A stretch of 64,000 nt of DNA from an uncultured Fluviicola sp. (GTDB lineage: Bacteria; Bacteroidota; Bacteroidia; Flavobacteriales_D; Crocinitomicaceae), in assembly GCA_913009205.1 (NCBI GenBank), contig CAJVYC010000001.1, forward strand, positions 124,001 to 188,000, in the 5' to 3' direction. Below are positions 24,938-64,000 of this stretch, one piece after another. Within the stretch, counting starts at the first letter, position 1. Each line of letters begins with the position of its first letter. The translations under genes and the position numbers were made by a program. A model generated the notes under the pieces. That model did not search any database, was not told the DNA's origin, and worked only from the letters and a program-made list of their open reading frames with translations.

Positions 24938-26866
24938 ATGCCTAATTTTGAATTAATGAAGCGCATAATCGGTATTCTTCCAGATCATGTTTTAATCCTT
25001 CTGAAAAGATTTGGAATAATCTTAATGACGATGTATTTCACCCGTATCGTCTTTTTATTATCCAACCTTACATCCTTTCAAAACTTATCCTTTTCGGATT
25101 TTATTGTGTCCATCTGGTTCGACATGATAACAATAGGATTGTTATTCCTTCCCTATTATGGTCTTTATTTATTACCGATTCCGCTCCGTCATACCAAAGC
25201 ATATAAGATCACTTTCAAACTCTATTTTCACCTAACAAGTGCTTTAATCCTTGGTTTAAATTTAATGGATGTTGAATACTTCAAATACACAGGCAAGCGA
25301 TCGACTTTCGATCTTTGGTCAATGTTTGGGGGAGGAGGAGATTTAGGTCAACTTTGGGACACTTTCCTAAATGATTTCTGGTTTGTAATTCTACTTTACA
25401 TTCTTCTAATTGTACTCACAGAATTCTTATACAGAAGAATCGATCGTAAGCCGGTTACTCGGTTGAACGGAAAAATATTTTATAAAATCAACATTATCTC
25501 TTTTTTAATGATGGTGCCTGTATTATTTGTAATGGGCCGAGGAGGATTTAATTTAAAACCGGTTGGAATCATTGAAGCCACACGATACACTGAGCCTGAA
25601 AATTTAGCGTTCGTCCTTCCCACAGCGTTTACAATGATCAAAACCATCGATCAAGGCGGACTTGAGCCTGTGCGACACATGTCGGACGAGGAAGCATTGC
25701 GCTATTTTGATCCTGTAAAAACGACGGAGCCACAAGACATTCTTCCCAACAAGACAAACGTCGTGATCATTATGCTTGAGAGTTTCGGGACTGAATTTGT
25801 CGGTGCTTACAACCAAGGTAAAGGATACACTCCTTTCTTGGATTCAATCATAGGCGAATCGCTTACTTTCGATTACAGCTTCGCCAATGGAAAGCGATCC
25901 ATAGAGGCCGTCCCTGCAGTTATTGCTTCGATACCTACCATGATGGAGAACGCGTACATTTCATCTCCTTATGGCAACAACAAGATCAATACCTTACCGA
26001 GTATTTTAAAGGAACATGGGTATGAGTCTGCGTTTTTTCATGGCGCAACAAACGGTTCAATGAGTTTTGATGGATTCTCTCGAATTTGTGGCTTCGATCA
26101 TTATTACGGAAGGTATGAGTACAACAATGATGATCACTATGATAAAACTTGGGGGATTTTAGATGAATATTTTAGCCCTTGGAGTGCGAGAAAAATGAGC
26201 AAAATGAAAGAACCTTTCTTCAGCACAGTTTTTACAATCTCGTCACATCATCCTTACTATATACCTAAACACCTCATAAACAAGATGAAACGGGGACCTC
26301 AAGAAATATGTGCATCAATAAATTATGGAGATTATTCACTCAAAAAGTTTTTTGTAGAAGCAAAAAAACAAAGTTGGTATAACAATACTTTATTCGTACT
26401 TTTAGCTGACCATACACCTGCGACAACATCAAAGATGTATAACCAAAGGACACATATTTTTAGAATTCCAATCGCGTTTTATCACCCTGGAGGAATTTTA
26501 AAGGCAGAGAGAAGTGATAGAACCTTTCAACAGTTGGATATTATGCCGACAATATTGGATCTGTTAAATATCGAAACCGATTATTATGCCTTTGGCAATT
26601 CATACTACAGTCCGAAAGGAGGCAGCGCTCTGGTCTATATGTCTGGTGCATACAGTTACTTTGAAGATGGTCGAATGATAATGTTTTCAGACAGTAAGGC
26701 ACGGAGTTTGTATAATTACACTCTGAAAAAAGTAGATTTAATAGACTCACTTTCATACTATAAAAAGGAGTCACAATCGGTAGAGATGAAAATAAAAGCT
26801 ATGATTCAACGTTATAATCATGACCTTCTTCAAAACCAAACAACTATAAATGAAACAAAGCATTAG
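24938..26866 (+). CDS. LtaS-like sulfatase-fold transferase, inner membrane
   Basis: A 642-residue protein with five predicted N-terminal membrane helices (residues 15-210) and a periplasmic alkaline-phosphatase/sulfatase domain. Visible elements are NVVIIMLESFG (metal-binding Glu), a nucleophile region ANGKRSIEAVPA where Ser replaces the Thr of LtaS, SSHHPYY, and LLADHTP (metal-binding Asp-His). The architecture is that of lipoteichoic acid synthase and related phosphoglycerol or phosphoethanolamine transferases. Gram-negative members modify envelope glycans or lipids; the acceptor here is unknown. An alternative ATG lies at 24956. Its last 17 bases overlap the lipid kinase gene, which suggests coupled synthesis. 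Confidence 0.87.
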   Translation: MPNFELMKRIIGILPDHVLILLKRFGIILMTMYFTRIVFLLSNLTSFQNLSFSDFIVSIWFDMITIGLLFLPYYGLYLLPIPLRHTKAYKITFKLYFHLTSALILGLNLMDVEYFKYTGKRSTFDLWSMFGGGGDLGQLWDTFLNDFWFVILLYILLIVLTEFLYRRIDRKPVTRLNGKIFYKINIISFLMMVPVLFVMGRGGFNLKPVGIIEATRYTEPENLAFVLPTAFTMIKTIDQGGLEPVRHMSDEEALRYFDPVKTTEPQDILPNKTNVVIIMLESFGTEFVGAYNQGKGYTPFLDSIIGESLTFDYSFANGKRSIEAVPAVIASIPTMMENAYISSPYGNNKINTLPSILKEHGYESAFFHGATNGSMSFDGFSRICGFDHYYGRYEYNNDDHYDKTWGILDEYFSPWSARKMSKMKEPFFSTVFTISSHHPYYIPKHLINKMKRGPQEICASINYGDYSLKKFFVEAKKQSWYNNTLFVLLADHTPATTSKMYNQRTHIFRIPIAFYHPGGILKAERSDRTFQQLDIMPTILDLLNIETDYYAFGNSYYSPKGGSALVYMSGAYSYFEDGRMIMFSDSKARSLYNYTLKKVDLIDSLSYYKKESQSVEMKIKAMIQRYNHDLLQNQTTINETKH

Positions 26867-27725
26867 GTTCATAATAAATCCTATATCTGGAGTTGGTAGG
26901 AAAAATATCATTCCTGGTTTGATTGAGAACAACCTCAATCATGATCAGTTTGAATATACTCTTGTTTACACTGAATATAAAAAACACGCAAAAGCGCTAG
27001 CGAATCAAGCCTCTAAGGAAGGGATCGATATTGTTTGTGCTGTTGGTGGTGATGGATCAGTTCATGAGGTAGGAACAGCTTTGATTGGAACAAAAACTAA
27101 ATTGGCCATCCTTCCTGCAGGTTCAGGAAATGGATTAGCGCGCCACTTGAATATCCCGATGAATTTGAAAGATGCTATTCTTTGCATTAATGATTCAAAC
27201 TCAATTGCAATGGACACTGTCCTTGTAAACGATAAATCATTCTTAGGAGTTGGAGGCTATGGATTTGATGCTGTAGTTGCTCAAAAATTCGATACACATC
27301 ACAGACGTGGTTTTTGGGGATATGTACAACTTATTATTCGTGAGTTCTTCAAATACAACCCTATAAACGCAACCATTGATATTGACGGAAAAGTAAAATC
27401 ACTTCCTGTAGTTCTATTGACTGTGGCAAATTCATCCCAGTTTGGAAATGGATTTACAATTTCACCGAAATCTGATGTTACAGATGGCGAATTGGAACTT
27501 GTCGTATTAAAGCCATTTTCAATTTGGTCAGCACCTTCTATTGTTTACCGCTTCTTCATGAAGAAAAGTGGAAAGTCAAGGCATTCTGAAATTATTCCTT
27601 TTAAAACAGCGAAATTGAAACTTTCAAAAAAGATTGCGCACTATGATGGTGAGCCTGTTAATGTAAAGAACGAAATCAACGTTAGTGTTGTTCCGAAAAG
27701 CTTATATATTTTAATCGGAAAATAG
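26850..27725 (+). CDS. Diacylglycerol/sphingosine kinase-like lipid kinase (YegS/BmrU family)
   Basis: A 291-residue soluble kinase. The nucleotide-binding domain has IINPISGVGRKN at the N terminus, VGGDGSVHEVGTAL near residue 65 and LPAGSGNGLARHLNIP near residue 90. The beta-rich C-terminal domain includes GGYGFDAVVAQ. By family it transfers phosphate from ATP to a lipid hydroxyl, for example diacylglycerol or a sphingoid base. It overlaps the LtaS-like gene by 17 bases. LtaS-type enzymes release diacylglycerol when they use phosphatidylglycerol, so recycling that product is the simplest joint role (inference). Confidence 0.87.
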   Translation: MKQSIRFIINPISGVGRKNIIPGLIENNLNHDQFEYTLVYTEYKKHAKALANQASKEGIDIVCAVGGDGSVHEVGTALIGTKTKLAILPAGSGNGLARHLNIPMNLKDAILCINDSNSIAMDTVLVNDKSFLGVGGYGFDAVVAQKFDTHHRRGFWGYVQLIIREFFKYNPINATIDIDGKVKSLPVVLLTVANSSQFGNGFTISPKSDVTDGELELVVLKPFSIWSAPSIVYRFFMKKSGKSRHSEIIPFKTAKLKLSKKIAHYDGEPVNVKNEINVSVVPKSLYILIGK

Positions 27726-27730
27726 ATTCA

Positions 27731-28186
27731 ATGTTATTTCTAGAGCCTACTCTCGAAAATTTTCAAAAACACATCGCTAAGCTTAAGAAGGATAAAGAAC
27801 CTATTTGGGGAACTATGTCGGCGCAAAGAATGTTAGAACACTTGACAGAATCTCTCGATATATCTATGGGTAAAGCAGGTGACAATAAACTTGAAATTCC
27901 ATTAGAAAATATCGGAAAAGCACAAGCATTTTTATTTTCAGAATACCCTCTTCCAAAAAACTTTAAAACTAAGTTCTTGCCATCCAATACGAGTAATCGA
28001 AATGCACATTTTCAATTGGCCATTTCAGAATTTGAAAATAAATGGGTAGAGTTTGAAAACTTCTTCGTCAAAAACCCGGATTTCAAGGCGCTTCATCCAA
28101 GTTTCGGAAACCTGAATCATAAGCAATATTTAGCTCTGCACTGTAAACACATGACGCATCATTTTGAACAATTCGAATTGATCTAA
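27731..28186 (+). CDS. DUF1569 / DinB-like four-helix protein
   Basis: A 151-residue cytosolic protein. The motif WGTMSAQRMLEHLTESLDIS near residue 25 and the C-terminal HPSFGNLNHKQYLALHCKHMTHHFEQF give the spaced histidines of the DinB/YfiT-like metal-binding four-helix bundle as found in DUF1569. Activity is not known. It follows the lipid kinase by 5 bases, and its stop codon overlaps the start of a small membrane protein (TAATG). Confidence 0.78.
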   Translation: MLFLEPTLENFQKHIAKLKKDKEPIWGTMSAQRMLEHLTESLDISMGKAGDNKLEIPLENIGKAQAFLFSEYPLPKNFKTKFLPSNTSNRNAHFQLAISEFENKWVEFENFFVKNPDFKALHPSFGNLNHKQYLALHCKHMTHHFEQFELI

Positions 28187-28347
28187 TGAACATGTATCTC
28201 TATGTCTACCCTATTTTTCCTGCCGTAATTATCGGTGTAATTAGTTGGCTTTATTGGAAAGAAAGAGGCTACTCATCAACGGTCCTCGGATATGGAATAA
28301 TTGTCGGCTATGTTTTCTCGCATTACATCTTCAAATATTTTGCTTGA
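28186..28347 (+). CDS. Small two-helix membrane protein
   Basis: A 53-residue protein starting MNMYLYVYPIFPAVIIGVIS. Two hydrophobic segments (about residues 4-23 and 31-52) are joined by WKERGYS. The ATG overlaps the stop of the DUF1569 gene by one base, the frame has good coding character, and it ends at a TGA. I do not recognise the family. The tight arrangement suggests it belongs to the LtaS-like/lipid kinase unit. Confidence 0.65.
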   Translation: MNMYLYVYPIFPAVIIGVISWLYWKERGYSSTVLGYGIIVGYVFSHYIFKYFA

Positions 28348-28464
28348 TAGCCCCTTATTCTGAATAGTTCATGTAACTTTATATCTTAGACCAATTTGTT
28401 ATGTTTCTCAAGCCTTTACCTAAAAAAAAATAGCGCTCAAACATGGCCAATGTAAAGATTGAAA

Positions 28465-59719: not shown

Positions 59720-60991
59720 ATGGCGCAAGACATATTTGATAAAATTAAGAAAAACAGAGGTCCTATCGGGCAACATTCCAAAGGAGTTCACGGTTATTTT
59801 ACCTTCCCGAAATTAGAAGGGGAAATCGGTAACAAAATGATATTTCGTGGAAAAGAAGTTTTAATCTGGTCAGTGAACAACTACCTAGGATTAGCAAATC
59901 ACCCTGAAGTTCGTAAGACGGATGCTGACGCTGCTGCAGAATACGGATTGGCTTATCCAATGGGGTCTCGCATGATGACTGGACAAACCGCGATGCACGA
60001 GCTTCTTGAAAAAGAACTATCGGAATTTATGGATAAGGAAGACTCTTTCCTTTTGAACTTCGGTTACCAAGGAATGGTGTCAGCTATTGACTGTATGGTT
60101 GATAGAAATGATGTTATTGTTTACGATAGTGAATCACACGCTTGTATTCTTGACGGAATGCGTTTGCACGTTGGAAAAAGATTTGTGTTCAAACACAACG
60201 ACATGGAAAGCTTCGATAAGCAAATGGAAAGAGCTGCACGTATCGTTGATAAAACAAACGGTGGAATCATGGTTATTACTGAGGGTGTCTTTGGTATGGC
60301 TGGAGATCAAGGTCGTTTAAAAGACATCGTTGAATTCAGAAAATCAGGAAAATACGATTTCAGATTATTTGTTGATGATGCGCACGGATTTGGAACTGTT
60401 GGTAAAACAGGACAAGGTTCAGGTGAGCAGCAAGGAGTTCAAGGTGAAATTGATATTCTTTTCGGAACATTTGCGAAATCAATGGCTTCAATTGGAGCAT
60501 TTATTTCCGGTGATGAGCATATGATTGAATACTTACGCTACAACATGCGTTCTCAAGTATTCGCAAAATCACTTCCTATGACTTTAGTAGTTGGAGCTAG
60601 AAAACGTCTTGAATTATTAAGAGACCAACCTCAGCACAAAGAAAATCTTTGGAAAATTGCTAGCGCTCTTCAATCTGGATTGGTTGAATCAGGTTTTAAT
60701 ATTGGAGTGACAAACTCCGCTGTTACTCCTGTATTCCTTCAAGGTGGGCTTGCTGAAGCAACAAACCTTACCTTTGATTTACGCGAGAACTACAACATCT
60801 TCTGTTCAATTGTAATTTATCCAGTTGTTCCTAAAGATACATTGATGTTGAGATTGATTCCAACAGCTTCTCACACGCTTGAAGATGTTCGATACACAAT
60901 TGAAACATTCGTGGCAATTAAAGCAAAATTAGACAACGGTGAATACCAGTCAGAAGAAATGGCATCTGTAGAAGTTGATACGAAAGCTTAG
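59720..60991 (+). CDS. Serine palmitoyltransferase-like alpha-oxoamine synthase (sphingolipid or sulfonolipid synthesis)
   Basis: A 423-residue PLP enzyme of the alpha-oxoamine synthase family. It shows WSVNNYLGLANHPEV, GSRMMTGQTAMHELLE, a PLP-stacking His in SESHACILDG, VDDAHGFGTVGKTGQG and the PLP lysine in LFGTFAKSMASIGAF. The longer N terminus (GVHGYFTFPKLEGE) resembles serine palmitoyltransferase and cysteate acyltransferase rather than KBL or BioF. It would condense an acyl thioester with serine or cysteate to start sphingolipid or capnine-type lipids. The start is the ATG at 59720 (MAQDIFDKIKK). The substrate is inferred. Confidence 0.75.
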   Translation: MAQDIFDKIKKNRGPIGQHSKGVHGYFTFPKLEGEIGNKMIFRGKEVLIWSVNNYLGLANHPEVRKTDADAAAEYGLAYPMGSRMMTGQTAMHELLEKELSEFMDKEDSFLLNFGYQGMVSAIDCMVDRNDVIVYDSESHACILDGMRLHVGKRFVFKHNDMESFDKQMERAARIVDKTNGGIMVITEGVFGMAGDQGRLKDIVEFRKSGKYDFRLFVDDAHGFGTVGKTGQGSGEQQGVQGEIDILFGTFAKSMASIGAFISGDEHMIEYLRYNMRSQVFAKSLPMTLVVGARKRLELLRDQPQHKENLWKIASALQSGLVESGFNIGVTNSAVTPVFLQGGLAEATNLTFDLRENYNIFCSIVIYPVVPKDTLMLRLIPTASHTLEDVRYTIETFVAIKAKLDNGEYQSEEMASVEVDTKA

Positions 60992-63035: not shown

Positions 63036-64000
63036 TTAACGCAAAGCGCGAATCAAAGCATCTAATTCTTGTTTTGTATTGAACGAGTGAATGCAAATCC
63101 GCAAACGCTCTTTCCCCTCGGTAACCGTTGGTGAATAAATTGGTTTAACAGCGATATTCAAGGCTTGAATCTTTTCCGCAACCATTTTAGTTGCTTCAAT
63201 GGAACCGAACTCAATTATTTGAATTGGTGACATTTCATTTGAAATCAAACCAGAATGATAAAAATTGGAACGGAAATAAACCAAGTTGGAATTCAATTTC
63301 ATTCGTCGATTTGAAGCTACACCAGAGGAAGCTAATTTTAAATTTCGTTCAAAAACAGACTCTGGAAGCGCTGTTGTATAAATGAACGACCGCGCAAAAT
63401 TATAGAGGTATTGAATCAAATCTGAACTCCCCAATACGCAAGCGCCATGAGAGCCATATGCCTTACCAAAGGTTACCAGTCGCGCAAAAACCAAATGAGT
63501 TAATCCCAATTCAAAAACCAAACCTTTACCGTTTTCACCAAACACGCCGCAAGCATGTGCTTCATCGACGATTAAATATGCGTTTCTTGATTTACACAAA
63601 ACCGCTAGCTTCTTGATTGGTGCGCAATCTCCATCCATCGAATACAAGGATTCGACCGCGACATAAATTGAACCTTCTGAACGCTCAATTTTAGCAGAAA
63701 GATCTTCAATGTCATTGTGTCTGAACGAGATCGTCTTTGCATGACTTAAGCGAATTCCATCTCTAACACTGGCGTGAATAAATTCATCATAGAGAATGGT
63801 ATCACCACGTTGAGGAATGCTGCTAAAAAGCCCCAGATTCGCATCATAGCCTGAATTAAACATCAAACTTGATTGTACAGCAAAGATTTGAGCAATTTCA
63901 GATTCAATTTCGAGCATTCTTGGCGTTGTTCCGGAAATCAATCGTGAACCCGTCGCACCATAAGAAGAAATTTCACAAGAAAAATCCTCCTTGGAGAGCC
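63036..64000 (-). CDS. 8-amino-7-oxononanoate synthase-like PLP enzyme, N terminus beyond window
   Basis: About 321 C-terminal residues are visible; the frame is open to the window edge (LSKEDFSCEISSYGATGSRLISG), so the start lies outside. It is an alpha-oxoamine synthase: GATGSRLISGTT, NSGYDANLGLFS, a stacking His in YDEFIHASVRDGIRL, VDEAHACGVFGENGKG and the PLP lysine in TFGKAYGSHGACVLGS. The TFGKAxG form with Gly-Ser-His-Gly is typical of BioF, which joins pimeloyl-ACP/CoA and alanine in biotin synthesis. KBL-like function is less likely. It is the second family member within 3 kb. Confidence 0.82.
   Translation of the reverse strand, partial: LSKEDFSCEISSYGATGSRLISGTTPRMLEIESEIAQIFAVQSSLMFNSGYDANLGLFSSIPQRGDTILYDEFIHASVRDGIRLSHAKTISFRHNDIEDLSAKIERSEGSIYVAVESLYSMDGDCAPIKKLAVLCKSRNAYLIVDEAHACGVFGENGKGLVFELGLTHLVFARLVTFGKAYGSHGACVLGSSDLIQYLYNFARSFIYTTALPESVFERNLKLASSGVASNRRMKLNSNLVYFRSNFYHSGLISNEMSPIQIIEFGSIEATKMVAEKIQALNIAVKPIYSPTVTEGKERLRICIHSFNTKQELDALIRALR

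Follow-up and report, generated by a model that had tools for sequence, protein, structure and literature searches.

Lipid head-group transfer with recycling of diacylglycerol (DAG) has been described in both Firmicutes and Gram-negative bacteria. In Firmicutes, LtaS and DgkB serve lipoteichoic acid synthesis with DAG recycling. In E. coli, OpgB (MdoB) acts in the membrane-derived oligosaccharide (MDO) cycle, and the DAG arising from this cycle is recycled by DgkA (PMC10865820). Two other proteins invite comparison with the locus studied here: VP1736 of Vibrio parahaemolyticus (PDB 3lxq), which itself has no assigned function, and dhSphK1 (PG1348) of Porphyromonas gingivalis, a lipid kinase from the same phylum that has been modelled on SphK1 (PMC9045371).

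The window analysed here is a stretch of 64,000 nucleotides from an uncultured Fluviicola sp. It carries a gene for an LtaS/OpgB-type transferase (LTAS) followed by one for a YegS/DgkB-type lipid kinase (KIN). The two proteins share with the Firmicutes system the LtaS-type fold and metal residues and a soluble kinase of the YegS/DgkB type, but here the genes overlap and the nucleophile of LTAS is Ser instead of Thr. Lipoteichoic acid or phosphatidylglycerol (PG) is not in evidence here. The E. coli cycle is a Gram-negative head-group transfer with DAG recycling, as proposed here, and the WGxxD motif region of OpgB is common with LTAS; however, the OpgB nucleophile is Thr, and DgkA belongs to a kinase family unrelated to KIN. 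VP1736 is the closest solved structure to LTAS by sequence and by fold and also has Ser at the place of the nucleophile (GTRS), although the two are only about 24% identical. dhSphK1 can be likened to KIN by description only, and the order to which KIN belongs is without a serine palmitoyltransferase (SPT) over the cut-off. With a probability of a little under 0.6, we propose that LTAS carries out a periplasmic head-group transfer that releases DAG, and that KIN rephosphorylates it.

The four-gene locus and its LtaS-type transferase

The window genome is 2.8 Mb in size and 99% complete, and the closest relatives with a name are MAGs that carry the label Crocinitomicaceae or Flavobacteriales. 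Four plus-strand genes occupy positions 24938-28347 (Table 1): the first two overlap by 17 bases, the third starts after a gap of 5 bases, and the last two overlap by 1 base; an ORF check found this layout and its coordinates to be exactly as an earlier note on this DNA had described them. The single PF00884 gene of the genome and its single PF00781 gene are the neighbours LTAS and KIN.

Table 1. Positions of the genes and predicted functional residues in the window.
Feature	Position	Strand	Length or basis
LTAS, LtaS/OpgB-type membrane alkaline-phosphatase-superfamily transferase	24938..26866	+	642 aa
LTAS Glu281, predicted metal ligand (= S. aureus LtaS Glu255)	25778..25780	+	alignment
LTAS Ser321, predicted nucleophile	25898..25900	+	alignment
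LTAS His437, aligns with LtaS His416	26246..26248	+	alignment
LTAS Asp491-His492, predicted metal ligands	26408..26413	+	alignment
LTAS-KIN overlap	26850..26866	+	17 bases
KIN, YegS/DgkB-type soluble lipid kinase	26850..27725	+	291 aa
DUF1569 protein, DinB/YfiT-like helical fold	27731..28186	+	151 aa
Hydrophobic protein, probably two helices, new family	28186..28347	+	53 aa
Predicted cysteate-C-fatty acyltransferase (SulA/CFAT) gene	59720-60991	+	structure-sequence scores, diagnostic Lys

LTAS consists of N-terminal transmembrane helices followed by a C-terminal catalytic domain, which is predicted by homology to be periplasmic. It matches the Sulfatase family (PF00884) with 128.7 bits (cut-off 25, E = 3.7e-37), yet reaches only 109.5 bits against the LtaS equivalog NF053595 (cut-off 970) and 45.8 bits against the OpgB/MdoB model NF003000 (cut-off 574). 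Judged by these scores, it is an LtaS-type enzyme that lies outside both named families. A fold search with its AlphaFold model (mean pLDDT 82) returned, in this order, 3lxq, LtaP and LtaS of Listeria, LtaS of S. aureus, and then PbgA/YejM and sulfatases. Our literature searches found no paper that states the function of the LtaS-like proteins common in Bacteroidota.

The metal and nucleophile residues of LtaS-type enzymes are found in LTAS as Glu281, Ser321, Asp491 and His492, with Ser in place of Thr. Glu281, His437, Asp491 and His492 are invariant among 24 aligned sequences, and position 321 is Ser in all members of the subfamily; OpgB of E. coli has Thr there, as do several paralogues. In a pairwise phmmer alignment, Thr300 of LtaS falls one residue earlier, opposite Arg320 of LTAS. 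The earlier note was right that the nucleophile is Ser and not Thr, but the Ser, from which it supposed that donor or acceptor may differ, was rejected as an argument for another donor, since this residue is an invariant hallmark common to the whole subfamily. We take His416, Trp354 and Arg356 of S. aureus LtaS to be its glycerophosphate-binding residues; in the alignment to that protein, the first is kept in LTAS as His437, and the other two are replaced by Met375 and Phe377, which counts against the proposed cycle.

The occurrence of YejM/PbgA among the matches of the fold search would agree with LTAS being a non-catalytic lipid sensor or binder of the same kind. We regard this as extremely improbable, because all the predicted catalytic residues (Glu281, Ser321, His437, Asp491 and His492) are conserved and 3lxq and the LtaP/LtaS folds match better than YejM/PbgA; both observations count for the cycle.

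Pairing of LTAS and KIN among relatives

We searched 60 relatives for LTAS, fetched the loci and mapped their neighbours; most of the genomes are MAGs. KIN lies directly after LTAS in all 35 loci from other genomes of the order, which represent seven families and LTAS identities down to 28%. When the window is included, the gap between the two genes ranges from -71 to +2 bases in 36 of 36 pairs, with start codons chosen by homology. Within the order but outside the genus, ten genomes have both orthologues, one has KIN alone, none has LTAS alone and 15 have neither (Fisher p = 2e-6, a statistic that ignores kinship and is inflated by shared ancestry); no genome with LTAS and without KIN was found in the order. 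G099, a member of the window's family, has both genes in separate places, and this counts against the cycle. A literature search, most subscription journals being outside its scope, found no description of the LTAS-KIN pair.

The earlier note had treated the four genes as one unit and suggested that their order be compared across relatives. The comparison bears out the adjacency of LTAS and KIN, whereas the DUF1569 and small-protein genes are not constantly found with the pair. DUF1569 has been gained or lost, LTAS has been lost several times, and only KIN and the small protein are kept throughout the genus. The four-gene unit was therefore rejected, as LTAS, DUF1569 and the small protein each have their own history; the core of the locus is the LTAS-KIN pair.

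In six genomes of the genus, KIN sits between the same neighbours and no LTAS is found at that place. When mapped on a tree built from four proteins encoded nearby, the presence and absence of LTAS require at least three changes; two of the six LTAS-less rows in this tree are short and their placement is unsure. In one other case (L059, from G030), stops split LTAS into two ORFs, by decay or possibly by assembly error. Because KIN persists without LTAS in these six members, LTAS-derived DAG is not the sole substrate of KIN. If LTAS makes a product that KIN must clear, and KIN has further work to do, such asymmetric loss is in the expected direction. The transferase would thus seem to depend on the kinase and not the reverse, as in Firmicutes, where the need for DgkB lasts only as long as LtaS produces DAG, and where dgkB, otherwise essential, becomes dispensable when the synthesis of lipoteichoic acid is blocked (PMC10865820). 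With KIN fixed beside LTAS, loss in this direction predicts that LTAS-type enzymes leave a lipid in need of rephosphorylation.

In other orders, the LTAS orthologues (30-39% identity) have no adjoining kinase; the exception is G287, in which KIN is the second gene upstream of LTAS. At four loci (L109, L112, L113 and L116), the LTAS orthologue is directly followed by a gene for a membrane-anchored PTP/DSP-like phosphatase. G160 and G079, which belong to one family of another order, each carry an LTAS paralogue with a YegS-type kinase gene immediately after it; the paralogue of G160 is 26% identical to the window LTAS. On the LTAS tree, which was built by a quick method and contains long branches, the distribution of linked and unlinked members takes six changes, and a single origin of linked LTAS was not recovered. 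The pairing may reflect either an old linkage that was later separated or repeated linkage.

The neighbourhood might also exist without any biochemical cycle, KIN being a housekeeping lipid kinase, LTAS an independent co-expressed envelope enzyme and the overlap a result of operon compaction. The six genus members that have KIN without LTAS, the many LTAS genes of other orders without an adjoining kinase, and the other neighbours of LTAS in those orders, such as the PTP-like phosphatase, would all fit this explanation, and the first two count against the cycle. We nevertheless find it unlikely, given that the overlap is retained across families at 28-60% LTAS identity, that the pairing recurs with a paralogue, and that LTAS was never found without KIN in the order.

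Kinase substrate and lipid donor

KIN matches DAGK_cat (PF00781; 102 bits, cut-off 23.6, E = 1.7e-29) as well as YegS_C (PF19279). It falls just under the cut-off of TIGR00147 (YegS/Rv2252/BmrU; 110.6 bits, cut-off 118.65), which the kinases at L107 and L214 exceed. Its GGDG motif (residues 66-69, GGDGS) and DGE(P) motif are intact, and GSGNG is found in KIN and nearly all its relatives where DgkB has GTxND. Unlike DgkB of S. aureus, KIN has no Asp at the place of Asp97, which belongs to the nucleotide/metal site. This difference counts against the cycle, as does the presence of a DgkA-type kinase gene (PF01219) in the window genome.

The earlier note also considered sphingoid lipids as substrates, on the strength of a gene at 59720 that it described as serine-palmitoyltransferase-like. 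That gene scores 590 and 581 bits with structures of SulA/CFAT and 236 with SPT, reaches 298 bits against the SPT model NF047600 (cut-off 640), and conserves the Lys that matches Lys281 of SulA, the diagnostic Lys of SulA/CFAT (PMC9304779). Its product is a cysteate acyltransferase (SulA), which opens the pathway to sulfonolipids, and the sphingoid link through this gene was rejected. No SPT over the cut-off was found in the window genome or the 60 relatives, and the gene of this genome that scores best against the SPT model encodes a glycine C-acetyltransferase. Since SPT was not found and the 59720 gene encodes SulA, sphingoid substrates are unlikely for KIN in the window's order, and DAG is the best guess. 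A further alpha-oxoamine-synthase-like ORF lies near the SulA gene at 63036-63941 on the minus strand.

In two f22 genomes, G287 (L107) and G295 (L193), a true SPT gene is divergent from a KIN-type kinase. KIN might accordingly be imagined to act on sphingoid bases or ceramide, with LTAS modifying a ceramide-type lipid with phosphoglycerol or phosphoethanolamine. GSGNG is common to KIN and the kinases beside SPT in these two genomes, SPT, KIN, AspRS and LTAS are consecutive in G287, and PG1348 of P. gingivalis phosphorylates dihydrosphingosine (PMC9045371). Set against the lack of an SPT over the cut-off in the window genome and its 60 relatives, the SulA/CFAT assignment of the 59720 candidate and the glycine C-acetyltransferase identity of the other paralogue, this explanation is very unlikely.

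With DAG as the probable substrate of KIN, the lipid from which LTAS would release it could be PG, as the earlier note had it, or phosphatidylethanolamine (PE). The proposal of PG is weakened by the replacement of two of the three LtaS glycerophosphate contacts and by the result that no canonical pgsA over the cut-off was found in the window genome or the 60 relatives, TIGR00560 being among the models used. The genome encodes two CDP-alcohol transferases, one PssA-like and the other resembling archaetidylinositol- or phosphatidylinositol-phosphate synthases and unlike PgsA. The PssA-like enzyme makes the precursor of PE. An Lgt homologue is also present; the known donor of Lgt is PG, so PG may come from a diverged enzyme. 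A paper on new species of Flavobacteriaceae, Crocinitomicaceae and Cytophagaceae reports PE and aminolipid as the predominant polar lipids of Brumimicrobium ulvae, a Crocinitomicaceae isolate (PMC12313589). We consider PE no less likely than PG to be the donor.

If LTAS takes PE and not PG, the outcome would be a phosphoethanolamine modification similar to that of EptA, and KIN would still recycle DAG. The nature of the two CDP-alcohol transferases, the lack of a TIGR00560 match over the cut-off in the 60 relatives, the polar lipids of the Crocinitomicaceae isolate and the replacement of LtaS Trp354 and Arg356 all speak for this variant, while the Lgt homologue, with some PG perhaps coming from a diverged enzyme, and the nearest folds (3lxq and LtaS/LtaP, EptA not being among the matches listed) speak against it. 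We view it as a tentative possibility; since it is a special case of the proposed cycle, our confidence in the one overlaps with that in the other.

The proposed cycle and the two small proteins

The conserved neighbourhood, the loss pattern and the recurrent pairing fit a cycle of head-group transfer and lipid salvage; the earlier note's idea of such a cycle is retained in this form, with PG as only one of two candidate donors. LTAS would be anchored in the inner membrane and expose its catalytic domain to the periplasm, where, with its bound metal and Ser321, it would remove the phosphorylated head group from a phospholipid (PE or PG) and pass it to an envelope acceptor, leaving DAG. The DAG would then move to the inner leaflet, and soluble KIN would phosphorylate it to phosphatidic acid for reuse. 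The overlapping reading frames could keep LTAS and KIN in step, and the DUF1569 protein, perhaps a regulator, and the 53-aa protein, perhaps a membrane tether, would go with KIN. If this is true, some envelope molecule of Gram-negative Bacteroidota is decorated through a cycle akin to those behind lipoteichoic acid and membrane-derived oligosaccharides, perhaps with PE as the source. A more specific version, in which the cassette is driven by PE without canonical PG synthesis, the 53-residue protein is a tether holding KIN and the DinB-like partner tunes the system, seems to us doubtful.

The DUF1569 protein matches PF07606 with 26.7 bits (cut-off 21). Its model is helical (pLDDT 88, from an alignment of six sequences only) and weakly matches DinB/YfiT proteins (E = 7e-3, probability 1.0), and His37, His140, His143 and His144 are conserved. 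Among the mapped loci, DUF1569 was confined to the window's family and the 53-aa protein to its genus. Some genus members have KIN and the small protein but no DUF1569, while in G034 and G099 KIN is followed by DUF1569 and the small protein was not detected. At the place that corresponds to 28347-28459 of the window, most genus members have a gene for an EI24/CysZ-like membrane protein of about 250 aa, which is missing from the window.

A profile search matched the 53-aa ORF to no known family. It has 31 homologues including the window's own, the others holding the equivalent position in 30 further genomes, with the family motif YPxxPAxxxGxxNWLYW[RK][RK][RQ]GYTS and codon-position differences of 0.42/0.28/0.63; on these grounds we take it to be a real gene. 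The protein is present in 28 of the 28 genus loci used for the tree, and its constancy with KIN, and not with LTAS, suggests that it is a partner of KIN.
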